Shown here: one piece after another, positions 28,131-63,740 of the stretch
Layout of the letters: each line of letters begins with the position of its first letter
How positions within the stretch are numbered: position 1 is the first letter of the stretch
DNA from: Oryzomicrobium sp.
Lineage (GTDB): Bacteria; Pseudomonadota; Gammaproteobacteria; Burkholderiales; Rhodocyclaceae
Assembly (NCBI RefSeq): GCF_021287045.1
Contig: NZ_JAJTBG010000001.1
Span: 359,855-423,854, forward strand
DNA: 64,000 nucleotides
Reading direction: 5' to 3'
Made by a program: the position numbers and the translations under genes
The notes under the pieces: generated by a model
Database searches by the model: none
Told to the model about the DNA's origin: nothing
What the model saw: only the letters and a program-made list of their open reading frames with translations

Positions 28131-28185
28131 CGTATGGCAGGGTTTATTTAATCAAGGTATGCATTATGTATTTTTTGCCTGTTTC

Positions 28186-28395
28186 TTGGGCGTTCTGTCA
28201 TAGCCTTGAGCTAAAAGAGTAATTCAGTGTTATCCACAGCCCTGTCCCCATTTTCTGGGGAAAGTGCCGGGCGTCCGAATGGTCGCCCTTCCAAACCCCG
28301 CGCCGGACAAGGGATTCCAGAGGGTGTGGCTGGAGAGCGAGGTGGGGCGCGGGGTTTGGCCCTGGCGGGCTGGAGATGGCCGCCCAGCCTGGAGT
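28186..28395 (+). repeat. dispersed repeat family, copy A
   Basis: The order matches copies B and C: GTCAT block (28197-28201), TTATCCACAG (28230-28239, a consensus DnaA box followed by G), hairpin TCCCCA-TTTTC-TGGGGA (28245-28261), then arms CCAAACCCCGCGCC (28291-28304) and GGCGCGGGGTTTGG (28346-28359). It lies between the 51-residue gene and clcA. The rest of the gap up to 28545 holds no gene. Confidence 0.85.
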
Positions 28396-28545
28396 TTGGG
28401 GCCGGCATCTTTATGCGCCTCCATGGTGGTGGCATGGCCGGGGTGCGGCCGGCTAGGTCCGGCGGGCGGGGCGGGCGTAGCATGCGACCTTTGCACCGTG
28501 CCCGCCGATGAGGGGCGGCGCGGTCTGGCGTTGGAGCATGCGGCG

Positions 28546-29850
28546 ATGAACGTTGCCTTCCTGAGACGGCAATTCAGCAGCAACCGGTGGCGGGTGCGCG
28601 CCACCTTGTGGACGGCGGCCCTGGTGGCGGGCGGCACGGTGGTGTTCTTCGCCAAGCTGGCGGAGTGGGCCTTGCACCTCTTCGACGGCCTGGTGGCGGG
28701 GCGGCCCTGGCTGCCCTTCCTGCTCGCCCCGGCCGTCGGCATGGCCACCGTGTGGCTGACCCGACGCTACGTGCCCGGGGCCCAGGGCAGCGGCATTCCC
28801 CAGGTGATCGCCGCCACCCGCATCGCCGCCAAGGGGGGCGAGGTGGGGGGGCTGGTGTCCCTGCGCATCGCCGCGGGCAAGGTGCTGCTGGGCGGGTTTG
28901 CGCTGCTGGGCGGCTTTTCCGCCGGGCGGGAGGGGCCGTCGGTGCAGGTGGCGGCGTCGATCCTGCATTTTTCCCACCGCTTCCTTCCCTATTCCCGGGC
29001 GATTCGGCCCCAGGATCTGTTGATCGCCGGGGGCGCGGCGGGCATCGCGGCGGCCTTCAACACGCCGCTGGCCGGCATCGTCTTCGCCATCGAGGAACTG
29101 GGACGGCGCCTGGAGGCCCGCACCAGCGGCGTGCTGGTCAGCACCATCATCATCGCCGGCCTGGTGGCCATCGCCCTGCTCGGCAATTACAACTACTTCG
29201 GCAAGCTCAAGGTGGCAGCCCTGGGCGATTCGGTGATCCTGCCCGTCTTGGCCGGCGGCCTGGCCACCGGCTTGCTCGGCGGGCTGTTCAGCCGCCTGAT
29301 GCTGTGGCCCCTGTATCGCAGCGACAGCCCTCTTTGGCAGTGGCGCGCCCGCCATCCGGTGCTCTTCGCCGGGGGCTGCGGCCTGGCGGTGGCGCTGCTC
29401 GGCCTGGTCAGCGCCGGGGCCTCCTACGGCAGCGGCTACGCCATCACCGCCCAAGTGGTGGCCGGCGAGGTGCAGCTGCCCTGGTACGTGGCCATCGCCC
29501 GCTTTCTCGCCACCCTGGCCAGCTACTTCTCGGGCATTCCCGGCGGCATCTTTGCCCCGTCCCTGGCCATCGGCGCCGGGCTGGGCTCGACCCTGGCCCA
29601 GCTCCAGGCCAGCACCGACGCCATTCCCCTGATCGCCCTGTGCATGGCCGGCTTTCTCGCAGCGGTGACCCAGTCGCCGATCACCTCGGCGATCATCGTC
29701 ATGGAAATGGTGGACGGCCATGAGATGGTCATCAGCCTGATGGCCATCGCCCTGCTGGCCAAGGCGGTCAGCTCGCGCATCAGCCCGGAGCTGTACCAGA
29801 AGCTCGCCACGGGCTGGCTGCCCGCGCCGCGCAAGGGGCCCGAGGCGTAG
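28546..29850 (+). CDS. clcA: ClC-family chloride/proton antiporter
   Basis: The 434-residue membrane protein carries the ClC selectivity signatures GSGIP (81-85), GREGP (127-131, gating Glu129) and GIPGGIFAP (328-336). A Glu pair at 183-184 (AIEEL) matches the region of the internal proton glutamate of E. coli ClcA, so H+/Cl- exchange is more likely than a channel. There is no CBS domain. The ATG at 28546 is chosen because an earlier in-frame GTG runs through repeat copy A. Copies of the same dispersed repeat flank the gene on both sides. Confidence 0.94.
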   Translation: MNVAFLRRQFSSNRWRVRATLWTAALVAGGTVVFFAKLAEWALHLFDGLVAGRPWLPFLLAPAVGMATVWLTRRYVPGAQGSGIPQVIAATRIAAKGGEVGGLVSLRIAAGKVLLGGFALLGGFSAGREGPSVQVAASILHFSHRFLPYSRAIRPQDLLIAGGAAGIAAAFNTPLAGIVFAIEELGRRLEARTSGVLVSTIIIAGLVAIALLGNYNYFGKLKVAALGDSVILPVLAGGLATGLLGGLFSRLMLWPLYRSDSPLWQWRARHPVLFAGGCGLAVALLGLVSAGASYGSGYAITAQVVAGEVQLPWYVAIARFLATLASYFSGIPGGIFAPSLAIGAGLGSTLAQLQASTDAIPLIALCMAGFLAAVTQSPITSAIIVMEMVDGHEMVISLMAIALLAKAVSSRISPELYQKLATGWLPAPRKGPEA

Positions 29851-29869
29851 GCCGCGCCATCGCGCCGCC

Positions 29870-30080
29870 TGTTTTTTGGGCGGTGCGTCATGTGCCCGGG
29901 GCAAAAGGGAAAAATCCGGTTGTCCACAGCCCTTTCCCCAGTTTCTGGGGAAATTCTTCAGGCCGCCCCGCCAAGGTCCGCGCCGGATAAGGCGTTCCAC
30001 GATGCCTGCCTGGAAAACCAATAGGGACGCGGGGTTTGGCGGTGGCAATCCGAAGGTCGGCGCCCCTATTGGTTTTCCGG
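29870..30080 (+). repeat. dispersed repeat family, copy B, with interlocked inverted repeats
   Basis: It contains a GTCAT block (29887-29891), TTGTCCACAG (29920-29929), hairpin TTTCCCCA-GTTTC-TGGGGAAA (29933-29953), then arm a CCGCCAAGGTCCGCG (29968-29982), arm b GGAAAACCAATAGGG (30012-30026), arm a' CGCGGGGTTTGGCGG (30028-30042) and arm b' CCCTATTGGTTTTCC (30064-30078). Arms b and b' are a perfect 15-base match; a and a' pair at 13 of 15. The order a-b-a'-b' is that of a pseudoknot. Confidence 0.87.
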
Positions 30081-30087
30081 GGGGCGG

Positions 30088-30125
30088 ATAAAAAAAGCCC
30101 GGCAGCGGAAGGGGCGCTGCCGGGC
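30088..30125 (-). terminator. intrinsic terminator of the nemA gene
   Basis: On the minus strand, GCCCGGCAGC and GCTGCCGGGC form a 10-base stem followed by seven U residues, about 80 bases after the nemA stop. The hairpin abuts repeat copy B. Confidence 0.93.
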
Positions 30126-30204
30126 CAAGCGAGTAGCGTGGATCGTGGGAGTCGGGCATCCACGGGGCGGCCGTCACGACCCCGGGCGGGGCCGTGGCGG
30201 CCGG

Positions 30205-31305
30205 TCAGGCGGTGGCGCCCTCCAGGGTCGGGTAGTCCAGGTAGCCCTCGCTGCCGCCGCCGTAGAAGGTGGCGGAGTTGGCCTTGTTGAGGGGGGCGTT
30301 ATCGCGCAGGCGGCGCACCAGATCCGGGTTGGCGATGAACGGGCGGCCGAAGGCCACCAGGTCGGTATGGCCGGAGGCGACGGCTTCCACGGCGGTGTCC
30401 CGGGTGTAGCCGTTGTTCACGATCCAGGCGCCGGGGAAGGCGCGGCGCAGGGCGTCGTAGTCGAAGGCCGGGGCGTCGGGCGGGGTGCGCTTGCCGCCAG
30501 TCTCGCCCTCGATCATGTGCACGTAGGCCAGGCCCAGGGGGGCGAGCTGGTCCACCACGTAGCCGTAGAGGGCCTGGGGATCGCTGTCGAGCGGCGTGGC
30601 GCCGCCGAAGGTGGTGAGGGGGCTCAAGCGGATGCCGGTGCGGCCGGGGCCGGCGGCCTGGGCCACGGCCTTGGTCGCCTCGAGCAGCAGGCGGGCGCGG
30701 TTTTCGATGCTGCCGCCGTAGGGGCCGCTGCGGTCGTTCACGCTGTCGCGCAGGAACTGCTCGATCAGGTAGGTGTTGGCGGCGTGCACTTCGACGCCGT
30801 CGAAGCCGGCCTCGATGGCGCAACGGGCGGCGTGGGCGTAGTCGGCGATCAGGCCGGGGATCTCGTCGTCGCGCAGGGCCCGGGGCGGGGTGGTGTCCAC
30901 GAAACCTTCGCTGGTGAAGGTCTTCAGGCCGGCCGGGGCGTGGTTGGTGGAGGACACCGGGGCGGCGCCGCCGGGCAGCAGGGAGCTGTGGGAGATGCGG
31001 CCCACGTGCCAGAGCTGGATGACGATCTTGCCGCCAGCGGCGTGCACCGCGTCGGTCACCTTGCGCCAGGCCGCCACCTGCTCGGGGGTGTAGATCCCCG
31101 GGGTGTCCAGGTAGCCCTGGGCCATGGCGTTGATGGGGCTGGCCTCGGCGATGATCAGGCCGGCGGTGGCGCGCTGTCGGTAGTAGTCCACCATGATCTC
31201 GGTGGGGATGCCGCCGATGGCCCGGTTGCGGGTCAGCGGCGCCATGACGATGCGGTTGGCCAGGGCGATGTCGCCCACCTGGATGGGGTCGAAGAGGGTG
31301 GTCAT
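30205..31305 (-). CDS. nemA: old yellow enzyme family FMN oxidoreductase, NemA-like
   Basis: The 366-residue flavin oxidoreductase has the OYE motifs NRIVMAPLTRNRA, QLWHVGR, and H174/N177/Y179 in HAANTYLIEQFL, spaced like His191/Asn194/Tyr196 of yeast OYE, followed by NDRSGPYGGSIENR. These enzymes reduce activated C=C bonds and nitro groups, including N-ethylmaleimide and other reactive electrophiles. It is 40 bases downstream of yqhD on the same strand, and a NemR-type repressor heads the cluster. A clear terminator follows. Confidence 0.93.
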   Translation of the reverse strand: MTTLFDPIQVGDIALANRIVMAPLTRNRAIGGIPTEIMVDYYRQRATAGLIIAEASPINAMAQGYLDTPGIYTPEQVAAWRKVTDAVHAAGGKIVIQLWHVGRISHSSLLPGGAAPVSSTNHAPAGLKTFTSEGFVDTTPPRALRDDEIPGLIADYAHAARCAIEAGFDGVEVHAANTYLIEQFLRDSVNDRSGPYGGSIENRARLLLEATKAVAQAAGPGRTGIRLSPLTTFGGATPLDSDPQALYGYVVDQLAPLGLAYVHMIEGETGGKRTPPDAPAFDYDALRRAFPGAWIVNNGYTRDTAVEAVASGHTDLVAFGRPFIANPDLVRRLRDNAPLNKANSATFYGGGSEGYLDYPTLEGATA

Positions 31306-31345
31306 GCACGTGCTCCTGTGGGTGTATCGGATGGGGGGGAGGGGA

Positions 31346-32503
31346 CTACAGGGCTGCTTGAAGGATGCGGCGGACGGCGGCGATGTCCACCGTCTGGCGT
31401 TCGCCCAGGGCGGTCATGCCGTGGGCCTGGAGCTGGGCGGCGACCTTGTCCGCGGCCTCGGCGCCGATGCCGTAGTCGCCGAGGCGGGTCTTGACGCCGA
31501 GGGATTCGAAGAAAGCCTGGGTACGGTCGATGGCCGCGTCGATGCGCTCGTCGGCGCCGCCGGAGTGGATGGCCCACACCTGGGCGGCGTACTGGAGCAG
31601 CTTGTCGCGCTTGGCGGCGCGGCACTCGCGCATCAGGGCGGGCAGGACGATGGCCAGGGTCTGGGCATGGTCCAGGCCGTACAGGGCGGTGATCTCGTGG
31701 CCGATCATGTGGGTGGCCCAGTCTTGCGGCACCCCGGCGCCGATCAGGCCGTTGAGGGCCTGGGTGGCGGCCCACATCAGGTTGGCGCGCACGTCGTAGT
31801 CCTGGGGCGTGGCCAGGGCCTGGGGGCCGACCTCGACCAGGGTCTGCAACAGGCCCTCGGCGTAGCGGTCCTGCACCGGGGCGTTGGCCGGGTAGGTCAG
31901 GTACTGCTCCATGACGTGCACGAAGGCATCCACCGCCCCGTTGGCGATCTGGCGCGGCGGCAGGGTGTAGGTCTTGACCGGGTCGAGCACCGAAAACCGG
32001 GGGAAGACGTGGGCGCTGGCAAAGCCCAGCTTGGCCTGGCGGGCGCGGCGGCTGACCACGGAGAAGTTGTTCATCTCCGAGCCGGTGGCCGGCAGGGTCA
32101 GCACGCAGCCCAGGGGCACGGCTTGGGTCACCTGGGCGCCGTGGGTCTCCAGGATCTGCCACGGGTCGCCCGGGTAGTCGACGGCAGCGGCGACGAACTT
32201 GGTGCCGTCGATCACCGAGCCGCCGCCCACGGCCAGCAGGAAGTCGAGCTTTTCGGCGCGGATCAGGGCCACGGCTTCCATCAGGGTGTCGAACTCCGGG
32301 TTCGGCTCGATGCCGCCGAAGCGGCGCACGGTACGGTTGCCCAGGGCGGCCTCCACCTCGGCCAGGGTACCGTTGCGCTCGGCGCTGCCGCCGCCGTAGA
32401 GCACCAGCACCTTGGCGTCGGTGGGCACCAACTGGTCGAGCTGGGCGATGCTGCCCTGGCCGAAGACGATGCGAGTCGGGTTGTAGTAGTCGAAGTTCTG
32501 CAT
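31346..32503 (-). CDS. yqhD: iron/zinc-dependent alcohol dehydrogenase, YqhD-like aldehyde reductase
   Basis: The 385-residue protein follows E. coli YqhD throughout: MQNFDYYNPTRIVFGQGSI, VLVLYGGGSAERNG, AVGGGSVIDGTKFVAA, LTLPATGSEMNN and the metal-binding DAFVHVMEQY plus HMIGHEITALYGLDHAQTL. YqhD reduces short toxic aldehydes such as acrolein, malondialdehyde and methylglyoxal with NADPH. Together with nemA and nemR this makes an electrophile detoxification operon. The operator at 32568-32584 lies 65 bases before its ATG, so it probably has its own repressed promoter. Confidence 0.94.
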   Translation of the reverse strand: MQNFDYYNPTRIVFGQGSIAQLDQLVPTDAKVLVLYGGGSAERNGTLAEVEAALGNRTVRRFGGIEPNPEFDTLMEAVALIRAEKLDFLLAVGGGSVIDGTKFVAAAVDYPGDPWQILETHGAQVTQAVPLGCVLTLPATGSEMNNFSVVSRRARQAKLGFASAHVFPRFSVLDPVKTYTLPPRQIANGAVDAFVHVMEQYLTYPANAPVQDRYAEGLLQTLVEVGPQALATPQDYDVRANLMWAATQALNGLIGAGVPQDWATHMIGHEITALYGLDHAQTLAIVLPALMRECRAAKRDKLLQYAAQVWAIHSGGADERIDAAIDRTQAFFESLGVKTRLGDYGIGAEAADKVAAQLQAHGMTALGERQTVDIAAVRRILQAAL

Positions 32504-32567
32504 GGCGGGCCTTTGGGAAAACTGTGGTGGATGCGTCGCGGGTACGTCGTGAATGCGGGGGTGCTAA

Positions 32568-32584
32568 TTAGACCGGTCGTCTAG
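32568..32584. promoter_or_regulatory. NemR-type operator upstream of yqhD
   Basis: TTAGACCGGTCGTCTAG, with TAGAC/GTCTA half-sites, is identical over 17 bases to the site before nemR (33275-33291). It resembles the TAGACC/GGTCTA half-sites described for the NemR box of E. coli. Confidence 0.85.
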
Positions 32585-32647
32585 TTGCTGGGTGATGACG
32601 GGTACGGTGGGAAAACAGACATGGCGGCCGTTTGGATGGGCTTGGGG

Positions 32648-33253
32648 TTAGGCAGCGGTGGGTTCGGAAGCCGGCGCGAGCAGCCGCTCGGTGGCGGCCA
32701 TGGCCTGTTCCAGGGGCGTTGCGGTGCGGTGCAGCTTGGCCAGCAGGCTGGCGCCGAGCCACAGCTGGTAGAGGGTTTCGGCAGTTTCCCGGGGCGGCAG
32801 GGCGGGCAGGGAGCCGTCCTCGGCGCCGGCGGCGATGCAGCCGGCCAAGCGGCGGATCACCCCTTCGGTGCCGTCGCGCAGGGCCAGGCGCATGGGTTCG
32901 GACAGGTCGGCCACCTCGCCGCTCAGCTTCACCACCAGGCATTTCTGGTCGGTGCAGCCGGTGCATTGGGTATCCACCCACTGCTGCCAGTAGCGCAGCA
33001 GGCGCACCCGGGCCGGGTAGGCCGGGTTGGTGAGCAGGGTGTCGACGCGCTCCAGGTAGCAGGCGAAGTAGTCCTCGATGAGGGCCTGGCCGAACTGCTC
33101 CTTGGATTTGAAGTAGTGGTAGAAGGAGCCCTTGGGCACATCCGCCGTCTGCAGAATCTCGGTCAAGCCGACGCAGGAGAACCCCTTGCCGGCAATGATG
33201 CGCTTGCCGGTGTCGAGGATGTGCTGGCGGGTGTCGTCGTAGTGGGCCTTCAT
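32648..33253 (-). CDS. nemR: TetR-family repressor, NemR-like
   Basis: The 201-residue protein aligns with E. coli NemR by eye: DTRQHILDTGKRI, GLTEILQTADVPKGSFYHYFKSKEQFG (HTH), KCLVVKLSGEVADLSEPMR and LWLGASLLAKLHRT. NemR senses electrophiles and hypochlorite through Cys106 forming a bond with Lys175; the equivalents here would be C105 and K173, both present. C97 and C100 are additional. Its own start is 22 bases from an operator copy, implying autorepression. It heads nemR-yqhD-nemA on the minus strand. Confidence 0.93.
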   Translation of the reverse strand: MKAHYDDTRQHILDTGKRIIAGKGFSCVGLTEILQTADVPKGSFYHYFKSKEQFGQALIEDYFACYLERVDTLLTNPAYPARVRLLRYWQQWVDTQCTGCTDQKCLVVKLSGEVADLSEPMRLALRDGTEGVIRRLAGCIAAGAEDGSLPALPPRETAETLYQLWLGASLLAKLHRTATPLEQAMAATERLLAPASEPTAA

Positions 33254-33274
33254 GACGACGCAGGATAGGTTAAA

Positions 33275-33291
33275 TTAGACCGGTCGTCTAG
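33275..33291. promoter_or_regulatory. NemR-type operator upstream of nemR
   Basis: TTAGACCGGTCGTCTAG is repeated exactly as at 32568-32584. It is placed 22 bases before the nemR ATG, where it would overlap the promoter of nemR. Confidence 0.87.
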
Positions 33292-33422
33292 TAATTTTTC
33301 TTGCCCGAGGTTCCGGGCGGTGTGAGTGGGTCGGAATGCTGGGCCGGGACACTAGATTCCCGGCGGTCGCGCAGCACCGCACCGGTTGACGGGCTGGGCA
33401 ACGAGGATGGGAGGAGGTGCGT

Positions 33423-33599
33423 ATGTTTGGTGCTGCTCACGGTGTGGCGGTATTGGTCTTCGTCCTGGCCATTACCGGTGTCCTGCCGGGCTGGCTGGCG
33501 GCCATCGTTTTTGCAGCCTTTGGACTGCTGCTGCTGGCGTGGCTCATCCTGATCTTCTTGCCGCCCATCGCCCGCGCTTTTTTCGACTTGTGGCGCTGA
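33423..33599 (+). CDS. small membrane protein, 58 residues
   Basis: The ATG at 33423 is preceded by GGAGGAGG at good spacing. A GTG two codons earlier sits on the Shine-Dalgarno and is rejected. The protein is nearly all hydrophobic: helix 1 (about 5-20), a short turn LPGW, helix 2 (about 24-47), then a short ARAFFDLWR tail. It resembles the small two-helix membrane proteins common beside redox genes, but no function can be given. It is divergent from nemR. Confidence 0.72.
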   Translation: MFGAAHGVAVLVFVLAITGVLPGWLAAIVFAAFGLLLLAWLILIFLPPIARAFFDLWR

Positions 33600-33732
33600 C
33601 TGGCGCGGTGGCCGGGAGCCCAGTGCTATCCACGGCTACGCTGGCCGACACGGGGTTATATGGGACTGACCGCGCCGGCCTTCACCTGCAACCCGCCTTG
33701 ACCGATGTGCCGGCCGTGGCGCCTCCCGCCAT

Positions 33733-33935
33733 TGCCCGTTTTGCGGGCATGGCGTCATATGCCTGAGGGCAAAGGGGAAATCCGGCTTATCCACAGACCT
33801 TTCCCCATTTTCTGGGGAAAGCCGCCGGGCCGCTGCCTGGAACCCCGCGCCAGTGCTCGATCTCCACGATGCCTCTTCGCAAAGCCACGATTGGCGCGGG
33901 GTTTGGGATAGGCATCGCGGAGATGCCCGTCCCTA
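33733..33935 (+). repeat. dispersed repeat family, copy C, with interlocked inverted repeats
   Basis: A GCCCG-TTTTG-CGGGC hairpin opens the unit, then GTCAT (33754-33758), TTATCCACAG (33787-33796), hairpin TTTCCCCA-TTTTC-TGGGGAAA (33799-33820), arm a AACCCCGCGCCA (33841-33852), arm b ATCTCCACGATGCCT (33860-33874), arm a' TGGCGCGGGGTT (33892-33903), arm b' AGGCATCGCGGAGAT (33910-33924). The a arms match exactly; the b arms pair at 14 of 15 with a G-U possibility. The copy ends at the fumC stop. The rest of 33600-33732 holds no gene. Confidence 0.87.
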
Positions 33936-35372
33936 TTAGGGTTTGGCGGAGGAGGGGGGCGGGGGCGGCGAGCCCACCATGTCCTCGGCGCGCACCCAGC
34001 GGTCGAAGTCCTCGGCGCTGACGTGGCCCAGGGCCAGGGCGGCGGCCTTGAGGGTGGTGCCTTCGTGGTGGGCGTGCTTGGCGATGGCCGCCGCCTTGTC
34101 GTAGCCGATGTGGGGCGCTAGGGCGGTGACCAGCATCAGGGAGCGTTCCACCAGTTCGGCGATGCGGCCGGTGTTGGGGACGATGCCGCGCACGCAGTGC
34201 AGGGTGAAGCTGGCCATGCCGTCGGCCAGGAGGCGCAGGCTTTGCAGCACGTTGTGGGCGATCAGGGGCTTGAACACGTTCAGCTCGAAGTTGCCCGAGG
34301 CAGCGCCCACGGTGATTGCCACGTCGTTGCCGAAGACCTGGGCGCAGACCATGGTCAGGGCCTCGCACTGGGTCGGGTTCACCTTGCCGGGCATGATCGA
34401 GCTGCCCGGCTCGTTCTCCGGCAGGCTGATCTCCCCCAGGCCGGAACGGGGGCCGGAGGCCAGCCAGCGCAGGTCGTTGGCGATCTTCATCAGCGCCGTG
34501 GCCAAAGTCTTGAGCGCCCCATGGGCCGCCACCAGGGGCTCGTGGCCGGCCAGGGCGGCGAAGCGGTTGCCTGCCACGGTGAACGGCAGGCCGGTGGCCG
34601 CCTCCAGCTCCCGGGCCACCCGGGGGCCGAAGCCGGGCGGAGCGTTGAGGCCGGTGCCCACCGCCGTGCCGCCTACCGCCAGGGCCAGCACCGCCGGCAG
34701 GGTGGCCTCGATGGCGGCATGGGCCAGGTCGAGCTGGGCCACGTAGCCGGAAAATTCCTGGCCCAGGGTCAGGGGCGTGGCGTCCTGCAAATGGGTGCGG
34801 CCGATCTTGACGATGGGGGCGAACTCTCGGGCCTTGGCGTCCAGCTCGGCGCGCAGGGCGGCCAGGGCCGGCAGCAGATGGTGGTGCAGCGCCCGGGCGG
34901 CGGCCACGTGCATGGCGGTGGGAAAGATGTCGTTGGACGACTGGCTGCGGTTCACGTCGTCGTTGGGATGCACCCTGCGCTTTTCGCCCCGCTCGCCGCC
35001 GAGCAACTCCGAGGCCCGGTTGGCCAGCACCTCGTTCATGTTCATGTTGGACTGGGTGCCCGACCCGGTCTGCCACACCGCCAGGGGAAATTCCTCCGGA
35101 TGCTGGCCCGCCAGCACCTCGTCGGCGGCGGCGGCGATGGCCGTGGCCGTATCGGCCGGCAACCCGGCCAAATCCCGGTTGGCCAGGGCCGAGGCCCGCT
35201 TGACCAGCGCCAGGGCCGCCACCAGCTCCGCCGGCATGCGCTCGGTGGAAATGGCGAAGTGCTCCCGGGACCGCTGGGTCTGGGCGCCCCACAACCGCTC
35301 GGCCGGCACGGCGATGGGTCCGAAGGTATCCCGCTCGGTGCGGGTGGCGGGGGGGTGGGGGATGGCAGGCAT
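33936..35372 (-). CDS. fumC: class II fumarate hydratase
   Basis: The 478-residue enzyme has class II fumarase motifs: [54 protein letters not shown] and the signature [11 protein letters not shown]. It interconverts fumarate and L-malate in the TCA cycle without an iron-sulfur cluster. The start at 35372 (GGAG upstream) is preferred; an ATG at 35396 adds eight residues. The last residues are a Pro run. The gene is alone, ending against repeat copy C. Confidence 0.95.
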
Positions 35373-63618: not shown

Positions 63619-63740
63619 GCATCGACCGGAAAGCCACGACTGGCGCGGGGTTTCAAGTCGATGCCGTGGAACGCCGCGCCAGTCTTCGATCTCCGCAATG
63701 GTGCCGTGAAGATGCCCGACTGGCGCGGTGTTCCGATGGG
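63619..63740 (-). repeat. dispersed repeat family, copy E, interlocked arms
   Basis: Arm x GCATCGAC (63619-63626), arm y ACTGGCGCGGGGTT (63639-63652), x' GTCGATGC (63657-63664), y' AACGCCGCGCCAGT (63670-63683) and a second y-type arm ACTGGCGCGGTGTT (63719-63732). The order x-y-x'-y' again interlocks. The sequence shares CTGGCGCGGGGTT, AAAGCCACGA and TCGATCTCCGCAAT-like strings with copy C. It starts four bases after the stop of the CoA-transferase gene. The rest of 63373-63618 holds no gene. Confidence 0.75.

Follow-up and report, generated by a model that had tools for sequence, protein, structure and literature searches.

Compact repeats with the DnaA-box geometry of the Escherichia coli DARS in Oryzomicrobium and related bacteria: candidate sites of DnaA recharging

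Results and discussion

Three copies (A, B and C) of a repeat in a 64,000-nucleotide stretch of Oryzomicrobium sp. DNA (contig NZ_JAJTBG010000001.1, positions 359,855 to 423,854; hereafter, the window) probably each carry a compact, multi-copy element of the type of the DnaA-reactivating sequences (DARS) of Escherichia coli, namely a core of three DnaA boxes flanked at its box III end by a Fis-like site, as judged from sequence comparisons. The copies (28186-28395, 29870-30080 and 33733-33935) hold their shared blocks in one order and on one strand, as a preliminary description of this DNA had reported, and each ~200-nt copy is a composite of two modules. The first, M1, spans about 90-105 nt and contains three DnaA-box-like 9-mers at fixed positions and a Fis-like 15-mer. 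The second, M2, is a repeat in its own right, with a 26-nt unit of the form AAACCCCGCGCC-N9-TTCC. We treat the 200-nt unit as composite because M2 precedes M1 in a fourth copy found in a congener (L006) and because M2 alone, used as a search query, matches many sites across the genome. The box-like 9-mers of M1 have a set orientation and spacing, are conserved, and recur in the family (Rhodocyclaceae) and order (Burkholderiales) of the window. The sites in the three copies are listed below; Fis-like 15-mers were assigned from the sequence, the family logo and a consensus test, DnaA boxes from the sequence, the logo and a geometry scan, and M2 units from a pattern scan.

28177..28191, + strand: Fis-like 15-mer of copy A (G..YR.....YR..C type)
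28230..28238, + strand: DnaA box III of copy A, TTATCCACA, 9/9
28242..28250, + strand: DnaA box II of copy A, CTGTCCCCA, 6/9, weak
28256..28264, - strand: DnaA box I of copy A, CTTTCCCCA, 7/9, opposite strand
28293..28318, + strand: M2 unit adjoining copy A, 26 nt
28332..28357, - strand: M2 unit adjoining copy A, 26 nt, inverted
29867..29881, + strand: Fis-like 15-mer of copy B
29920..29928, + strand: DnaA box III of copy B, TTGTCCACA, 8/9
29932..29940, + strand: DnaA box II of copy B, CTTTCCCCA, 7/9
29946..29954, - strand: DnaA box I of copy B, ATTTCCCCA, 7/9, opposite strand
30012..30037, - strand: M2 unit adjoining copy B, 26 nt
33734..33748, + strand: Fis-like 15-mer of copy C
33787..33795, + strand: DnaA box III of copy C, TTATCCACA, 9/9
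33799..33807, + strand: DnaA box II of copy C, CTTTCCCCA, 7/9
33813..33821, - strand: DnaA box I of copy C, CTTTCCCCA, 7/9, opposite strand
33840..33865, + strand: M2 unit adjoining copy C, 26 nt

A three-box core laid out like that of a DARS

The M1 alignment started from 120 copies, from which those more than 85% identical were dropped to keep 98 non-redundant copies. The conserved parts of the alignment are a 15-mer (G-C-C-Y-R-W-T-T-T-T-T-R-N-G-C) at the 5' end and, at the 3' end, three 9-mers: TTRTCCACA (box III), TTRYCCMCR 12 nt on (box II) and, after a 5-nt gap, TTRTCCMCA on the other strand (box I). When the columns of each box are taken alone, the logo yields the DnaA-box consensus in all three cases. 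The preliminary description had recognized a single DnaA box per copy; the idea is borne out and extended to three boxes in the arrangement of a DARS core. Mean matches to TTWTNCACA were, of 9 positions, 8.23 for box III (n = 98), 6.37 for box II (n = 97) and 7.32 for box I (n = 84), compared to 2.83 for control 9-mers. At least 8 of the 9 positions of the DnaA-box consensus are matched by 86% of the boxes III, 20% of 97 boxes II and 38% of 84 boxes I, and the middle box (II) is a perfect TTATCCACA in 15/98 copies. Departures from the box spacing were found in 1, 1 and 1 of 98 copies in three checks on the alignment, whose fitting to the model favours such constancy. The gap between the 15-mer and box III is of two classes (50/51 nt in 59/84 copies and 38/39 nt in 23/84) that differ by about one helical turn, a difference that suits proteins bound to DNA.

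DARS1 and DARS2 of E. coli share a core of three equally spaced DnaA boxes, with box I opposite to boxes II and III (PMC5742627; PMC8682772). We measured their positions in strain MG1655 at 813107 (+), 813121 (-) and 813133 (-) for DARS1 and at 2969135 (+), 2969149 (-) and 2969161 (-) for DARS2, which gives start-to-start distances of 14 and 12 nt in both. Reverse-complemented, M1 has box I on the plus strand, box II on the minus strand at +14 and box III on the minus strand at +26, identical to both DARS cores. Hence, M1 shares with them the three-box core, the opposite orientation of box I and the 14- and 12-nt spacing. A scan for this geometry, scored out of 27, gave 25 for DARS1 and 24 for DARS2 in E. 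coli. No place in the stretches around oriC and datA scored above 21, and another place within the DARS2 region scored 22. In the window, copies C (23), B (22) and A (22) were the top three places, the next one reached 21, and 20 Markov nulls did not exceed 20.

The likeness was also recovered by profile searches. We used two profiles, R1 (sequence-only, from 11 training copies) and R2 (from 26 copies, including the class that is ~12 nt longer), each of which matches its own training copies by construction. R2 was trained without E. coli and run with filters off on four 50-kb E. coli stretches around DARS1, DARS2, oriC and datA. In the 100 kb around the two DARS, it ranked DARS1 first (15.8 bits, E 0.00089) and DARS2 second (11.3 bits, E 0.023), whereas its best match in the 100 kb that include oriC and datA had 7.4 bits (E 0.37). 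The alignment of R2 to DARS1 covers model positions 13-108. An oriC fragment was also considered and rejected: with filters off, R2 gave 10.4 bits in the dnaA-dnaN region of the complete congener genome (G042), 7.5 bits in the region before dnaA and no more than 5.4 bits around oriC of E. coli. A search pattern for dif sites matched 1/12 genomes, and this candidate was dropped as well.

The comparison with datA bears on a different role for the same boxes. In a titration or ATP-hydrolysis site of the datA kind, the boxes would soak up DnaA or promote the hydrolysis of DnaA-bound ATP, and the presence of several boxes per site and of multiple sites, some in tandem, in one genome would agree with such a role, as would the weak boxes I and II, which could favour cooperative ATP-DnaA. 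Furthermore, datA and the DnaA-box clusters of Bacillus subtilis are, like M1, chromosomal clusters outside oriC (PMC5742627; PMC13220808), the B. subtilis clusters being likened by description only. However, no R2 match in the 50 kb around datA exceeded 6.9 bits (E 0.55), and titration requires no fixed geometry, whereas the placement of box I relative to boxes II and III in M1, at 14 and 12 nt, is that of a DARS. We therefore regard a titration or datA-like role as unlikely.

The Fis-like site

The conserved 15-mer stands on the box III side of the core and resembles a binding site for Fis. A relaxed Fis consensus was matched at 6/6 positions in 57% of 84 copies, compared to 1.0% of 421 AT-rich control 15-mers. 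With the strict published consensus, at least 5/6 positions were matched in 64% of the copies and 1.4% of the controls, and all 6/6 in 14% and 0%, respectively. A Fis-like protein is encoded in 16/16 genomes tested. In E. coli, DARS2 is activated by integration host factor (IHF) and Fis, which bind next to the core (PMC5742627, PMC8682772). At the level of the motif, M1 may resemble DARS2 in its candidate Fis site. DARS2 is also much the larger, with 455 bp, IHF sites and several Fis sites, compared to the about 90-105 nt and one Fis-like site of M1.

If M1 acts as a DARS, DnaA would bind the three boxes and the molecules on boxes I and II would meet head to head, as proposed for the E. coli sites. 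DnaA in this position would release ADP and could then bind ATP again. Fis may modulate this recharging, and the several copies per chromosome could set its rate.

Several observations weigh against a DARS function. Boxes II and I are weak in M1, whereas all six core boxes of the E. coli DARS match at least 8/9 positions; in DARS1, for example, boxes I, II and III match 8, 9 and 8 of 9, unlike the usual strong box III and weak box II of M1. Just 14% of 84 copies match the strict Fis consensus in full, the relaxed form was picked post hoc, after the likeness had been noticed in the logo, and the Fis-like site of copy A is only 69% identical in the congener. Complementarity is in modest excess at pairs 102-109 (z 3.5), 94-117 (2.6) and 97-114 (2.0) of boxes II and I, with relatedness among copies uncontrolled. 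With the filters at their defaults, the search of the 200 kb from E. coli reported DARS1 alone (E 0.0018) and missed DARS2, whose 11.3 bits with filters off barely exceed the score of the congener dnaA-dnaN region, a match to model positions 46-88 only; by itself, DARS2 is a weak R2 match. E. coli has 52 box pairs of similar arrangement, from which the two DARS were chosen (PMC5835720), so that the layout alone is no proof of activity. Lastly, DARS in a dozen copies or more would amount to a high dosage, and DARS on higher-copy plasmids was deleterious in E. coli (PMC5835720).

Probable binding sites rather than a hairpin

The preliminary description had also drawn a CCCC/GGGG hairpin in the three copies and suggested selection on its structure. 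The CCCC-GGGG pairing is indeed present in A, B and C, and it coincides with boxes II and I. These boxes converge and are, therefore, inverted repeats that can be drawn as a hairpin. The diagnostic pair is at columns 100-111 (A or C versus G or T), which were complementary in 43% of the 98 copies when 46% was expected from shuffles. In view of this lack of compensatory change, selection on the hairpin is not supported. A modest excess of complementarity was detected at pair 5-25 in the 5' block (z 2.1 over the 98 copies, relatedness uncontrolled). Single-sequence folds had z scores of -1.77 (A), -2.87 (B) and -3.05 (C), largely due to the M2 arms. A hairpin or structured RNA was rejected, with no covariation at columns 100-111, and sites for DNA-binding proteins would account better for the region of boxes II and I. 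No Rfam family matched at gathering scores over 20 kb, nor at E ≤1 over 5.9 kb.

Stable positions and conservation between congeners

Eleven of the 12 R2 matches in the genome of the window were compared with 15 loci of the complete congener, and 10/11 have shared flanks in matching orientation. The flank match is one-sided in three of those ten (C19:7755, C6:172922 and C23:43490), and the remaining locus (C6:171019) has no partner. Among these loci, no insertion polymorphism of M1 between relatives was found; terminal inverted repeats and target site duplications were not part of the search. When copies A, B and C are compared with their congener orthologs, identity is 94, 97 and 97% in the 35-nt box core, 62, 78 and 89% in the spacer, 62, 83 and 87% in M2, and 69, 100 and 88% in the Fis-like site. 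The conservation and stable positions of M1 are unlike those of a young mobile repeat. For the M1 half, the mobile reading of the preliminary description, which had considered a repetitive extragenic palindrome (REP) or a miniature inverted-repeat transposable element (MITE), is not supported in view of this positional conservation.

An ordinary dispersed repeat, whether REP, bacterial interspersed mosaic element (BIME) or MITE, that resembles DnaA boxes by chance is for the same reasons very improbable. The M2 units are dispersed in both orientations and the two halves of the repeat occur in both orders, as one would expect of such a repeat. M1, by contrast, keeps its positions in the congener, is present across the order, varies less in its boxes than in the spacer, and has three boxes that each converge separately on the DnaA consensus.

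A local cluster with relatives across the family and order

Whether the repeat is dispersed, as was first proposed, depends on the pattern used. The strict 34-nt core TTRTCCACAGNCCTNTCCCCANTTTCTGGGGAAA has 3 matches with 0 mismatches in the window (mean of 0.00 over 100 shuffles) and, with up to 3 mismatches, still 3 matches in the entire 3.91-Mb genome. Four are present in the complete genome of the congener, of which three lie in the corresponding cluster. By this pattern, the copies look like a local cluster and not a dispersed family; diverged relatives of the first half (M1) are found elsewhere in the genome. R1 found 9 copies at 43 bits or more and R2 found 12 matches at E 0.01 in this genome, and 12 copies reached at least 46 bits with R1 in the congener.

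The family and order searches applied stricter filters and scored a limited number of candidates per genome. R1 matched 35/297 genomes of the family at E 1e-4. R2 at E 1e-5 matched 247/297, including 209/241 of good quality and 60/68 genera. Across the order sample, R2 matched 212/399 genomes (191/346 of good quality; 101/159 genera), with 11 matching rows from the family of the window. In 19 chosen genomes, R2 at E 0.01 found the element in all 19, with 1 to 16 matches each. At least two chromosomal DARS are known in E. coli (PMC5742627), and copy number here goes far beyond the two described there. On 480 kb of arbitrary stretches from the congener and a second genome (G126), R2 found nothing better than E 0.13. 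Some copies form tandem arrays, such as three copies 225-226 nt apart in one genome (G067) and four in another (G104). It is about as likely as not that DARS exist in the family and order as a compact kind of repeat, with up to 16 matches per chromosome, some in tandem and some on an integrative conjugative element (ICE). If true, DnaA recharging would be spread over the chromosome and tuned by copy number, and would not be the task of two loci.

Five three-box-like elements were observed in L007:1152-1853 (G074) at alternating spacings of 196, 124, 195 and 123, as if a 320-nt pair had been duplicated. Weaker three-box elements were also noted in the congener at C1:34196, 2408452 and 1641368 (L093, L095 and L091), upstream of priA- and xseA-like genes and beside comEC, with the genes named by eye from translations; the elements at 34196 and 1641368 have partners in the genome of the window.

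A search of a contig database returned one match, in Aromatoleum toluolicum (Rhodocyclaceae, Betaproteobacteria). The DARS-like element (L015:5684-5712) precedes a RadC-type gene on ICE-like DNA with TraU, SLT and DsbC domains, and comparable DNA with the element upstream of a RadC-type gene is present in G044 (C1:2896911) and G248 (C1:3069815). The occurrence on ICE-like DNA resembles that of a DARS on plasmid ColE1 (PMC5835720). The ICE-like stretch of A. toluolicum had no match among plasmids, and viral contigs gave no exact match.

Descriptions of DARS come from E. coli and its close relatives. The DARS2 core was described as conserved specifically among gammaproteobacteria related to E. 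coli (Kasho 2014; PMC4245941), and in a later review this group gives 'beta- or gamma-' in a passage that names no species (PMC5742627). For B. subtilis, DnaA recharging is called unknown in a 2026 review (PMC13220808). In the searchable literature, which excludes subscription papers and preprints, we found no work on DARS in Betaproteobacteria or on DnaA boxes in Rhodocyclaceae, and no report of a compact multi-copy DARS, although this does not prove that there is none. As far as searched, the compact multi-copy form of an element with DARS geometry would be new. If the elements work, their natural differences in copy number, spacing and box strength would make them a test bed, and the profile could be used to search hundreds of genomes.

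Orientation on the chromosome

The distribution in the complete congener is also what polar replication-termination (Ter-like) sites, oriented with the replichore and located in the terminus half, would show. There, 12/12 strong R1 matches and 15/16 R2 matches follow the direction of the fork, and the 12 strong R1 matches are at 1.09-2.50 Mb of 3.53 Mb, in the terminus half. The proportion of R2 matches in fork direction was mixed in other genomes: 7/10 in G126, 5/8 in G044, 2/8 in G248, 3/4 in G034 and 2/2 in G010. Coarse GC-skew samples had placed the terminus of the congener at 2.2 Mb and the origin and terminus of G126 at 1.55 and 3.19 Mb, and the terminus of G044, G248, G034 and G010 was taken as the antipode of the contig start encoding dnaA; G067, G136, G005 and G018, with no dnaA at the contig start, were left out. 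The mixed polarity outside the congener weakens a fork trap, and the DARS geometry is the better account of the sequence. A Ter-like function is thus scarcely plausible.

Neighbouring genes

Copy A is upstream of a ClC-type gene, copy B is between convergent ClC-type and OYE-type genes, and copy C comes right after a fumarase-type gene, on its 3' side, ~480 nt from a TetR-type start and behind a possible 60-aa open reading frame. The position of copy A could be that of a promoter module through which DnaA controls the gene downstream, as could those of the weaker congener copies near the priA-, xseA- and comEC-like genes. DARS1 and DARS2 are themselves in the promoter regions of uvrB and mutH (PMC5835720), and both roles may coexist. 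The convergent genes around copy B and the place of copy C, past a 3' end and ~480 nt from the TetR-type start, are at odds with a DnaA-regulated promoter, which we consider quite unlikely as the function of the element.

The M2 repeat family

M2 is a separate dispersed family that flanks the DARS-like sites. Its pattern had 40 matches in 178.8 kb of stretches from the genome of the window, where each of five Markov nulls had between 2 and 6, and a few of the matches will be due to chance; the stretches were partly picked for their M2 matches and their density is not a genome average. The 40 matches are distributed over 15 contigs in both orientations, as direct and inverted pairs, and nine of the spacings between neighbours are 39-41 nt. 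In the window, M2 is found at 28293-28357, 30012-30037, 33840-33865 and 63628-63694. The complementary arms AACCCCGCGCC/GGCGCGGGGTT noted in the preliminary description are present, as parts of 26-nt M2 units on opposite strands (most clearly in copy A) and not as arms of one larger element.

Like REP and BIME sequences, the M2 units are short and dispersed in both orientations, and to this extent the second half of the repeat is REP-like. Unlike them, the M2 unit forms no hairpin of its own as judged by eye, and no associated REP-associated tyrosine transposase (RAYT) gene was found. The genome has one Y1_Tnp (RAYT-type) match, and no M2 unit was found within the 3.3 kb around this sole gene, with RAYT-like genes below the threshold still possible. 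A REP/RAYT system was not supported for M2. The RAYT-type gene itself (G000 C9:130204-130533; L062) is solitary and short (138 aa), in an AT-rich stretch, and perhaps truncated. Part of the congener gene before a further copy (copy D; query positions 300-466) has several partners in the genome of the window that are 70-77% identical (C9:361956-362122, C9:358986-359138, C21:8119-8251 and C9:331673-331873 of G000, among others), which we guess may be sensor-kinase paralogs.

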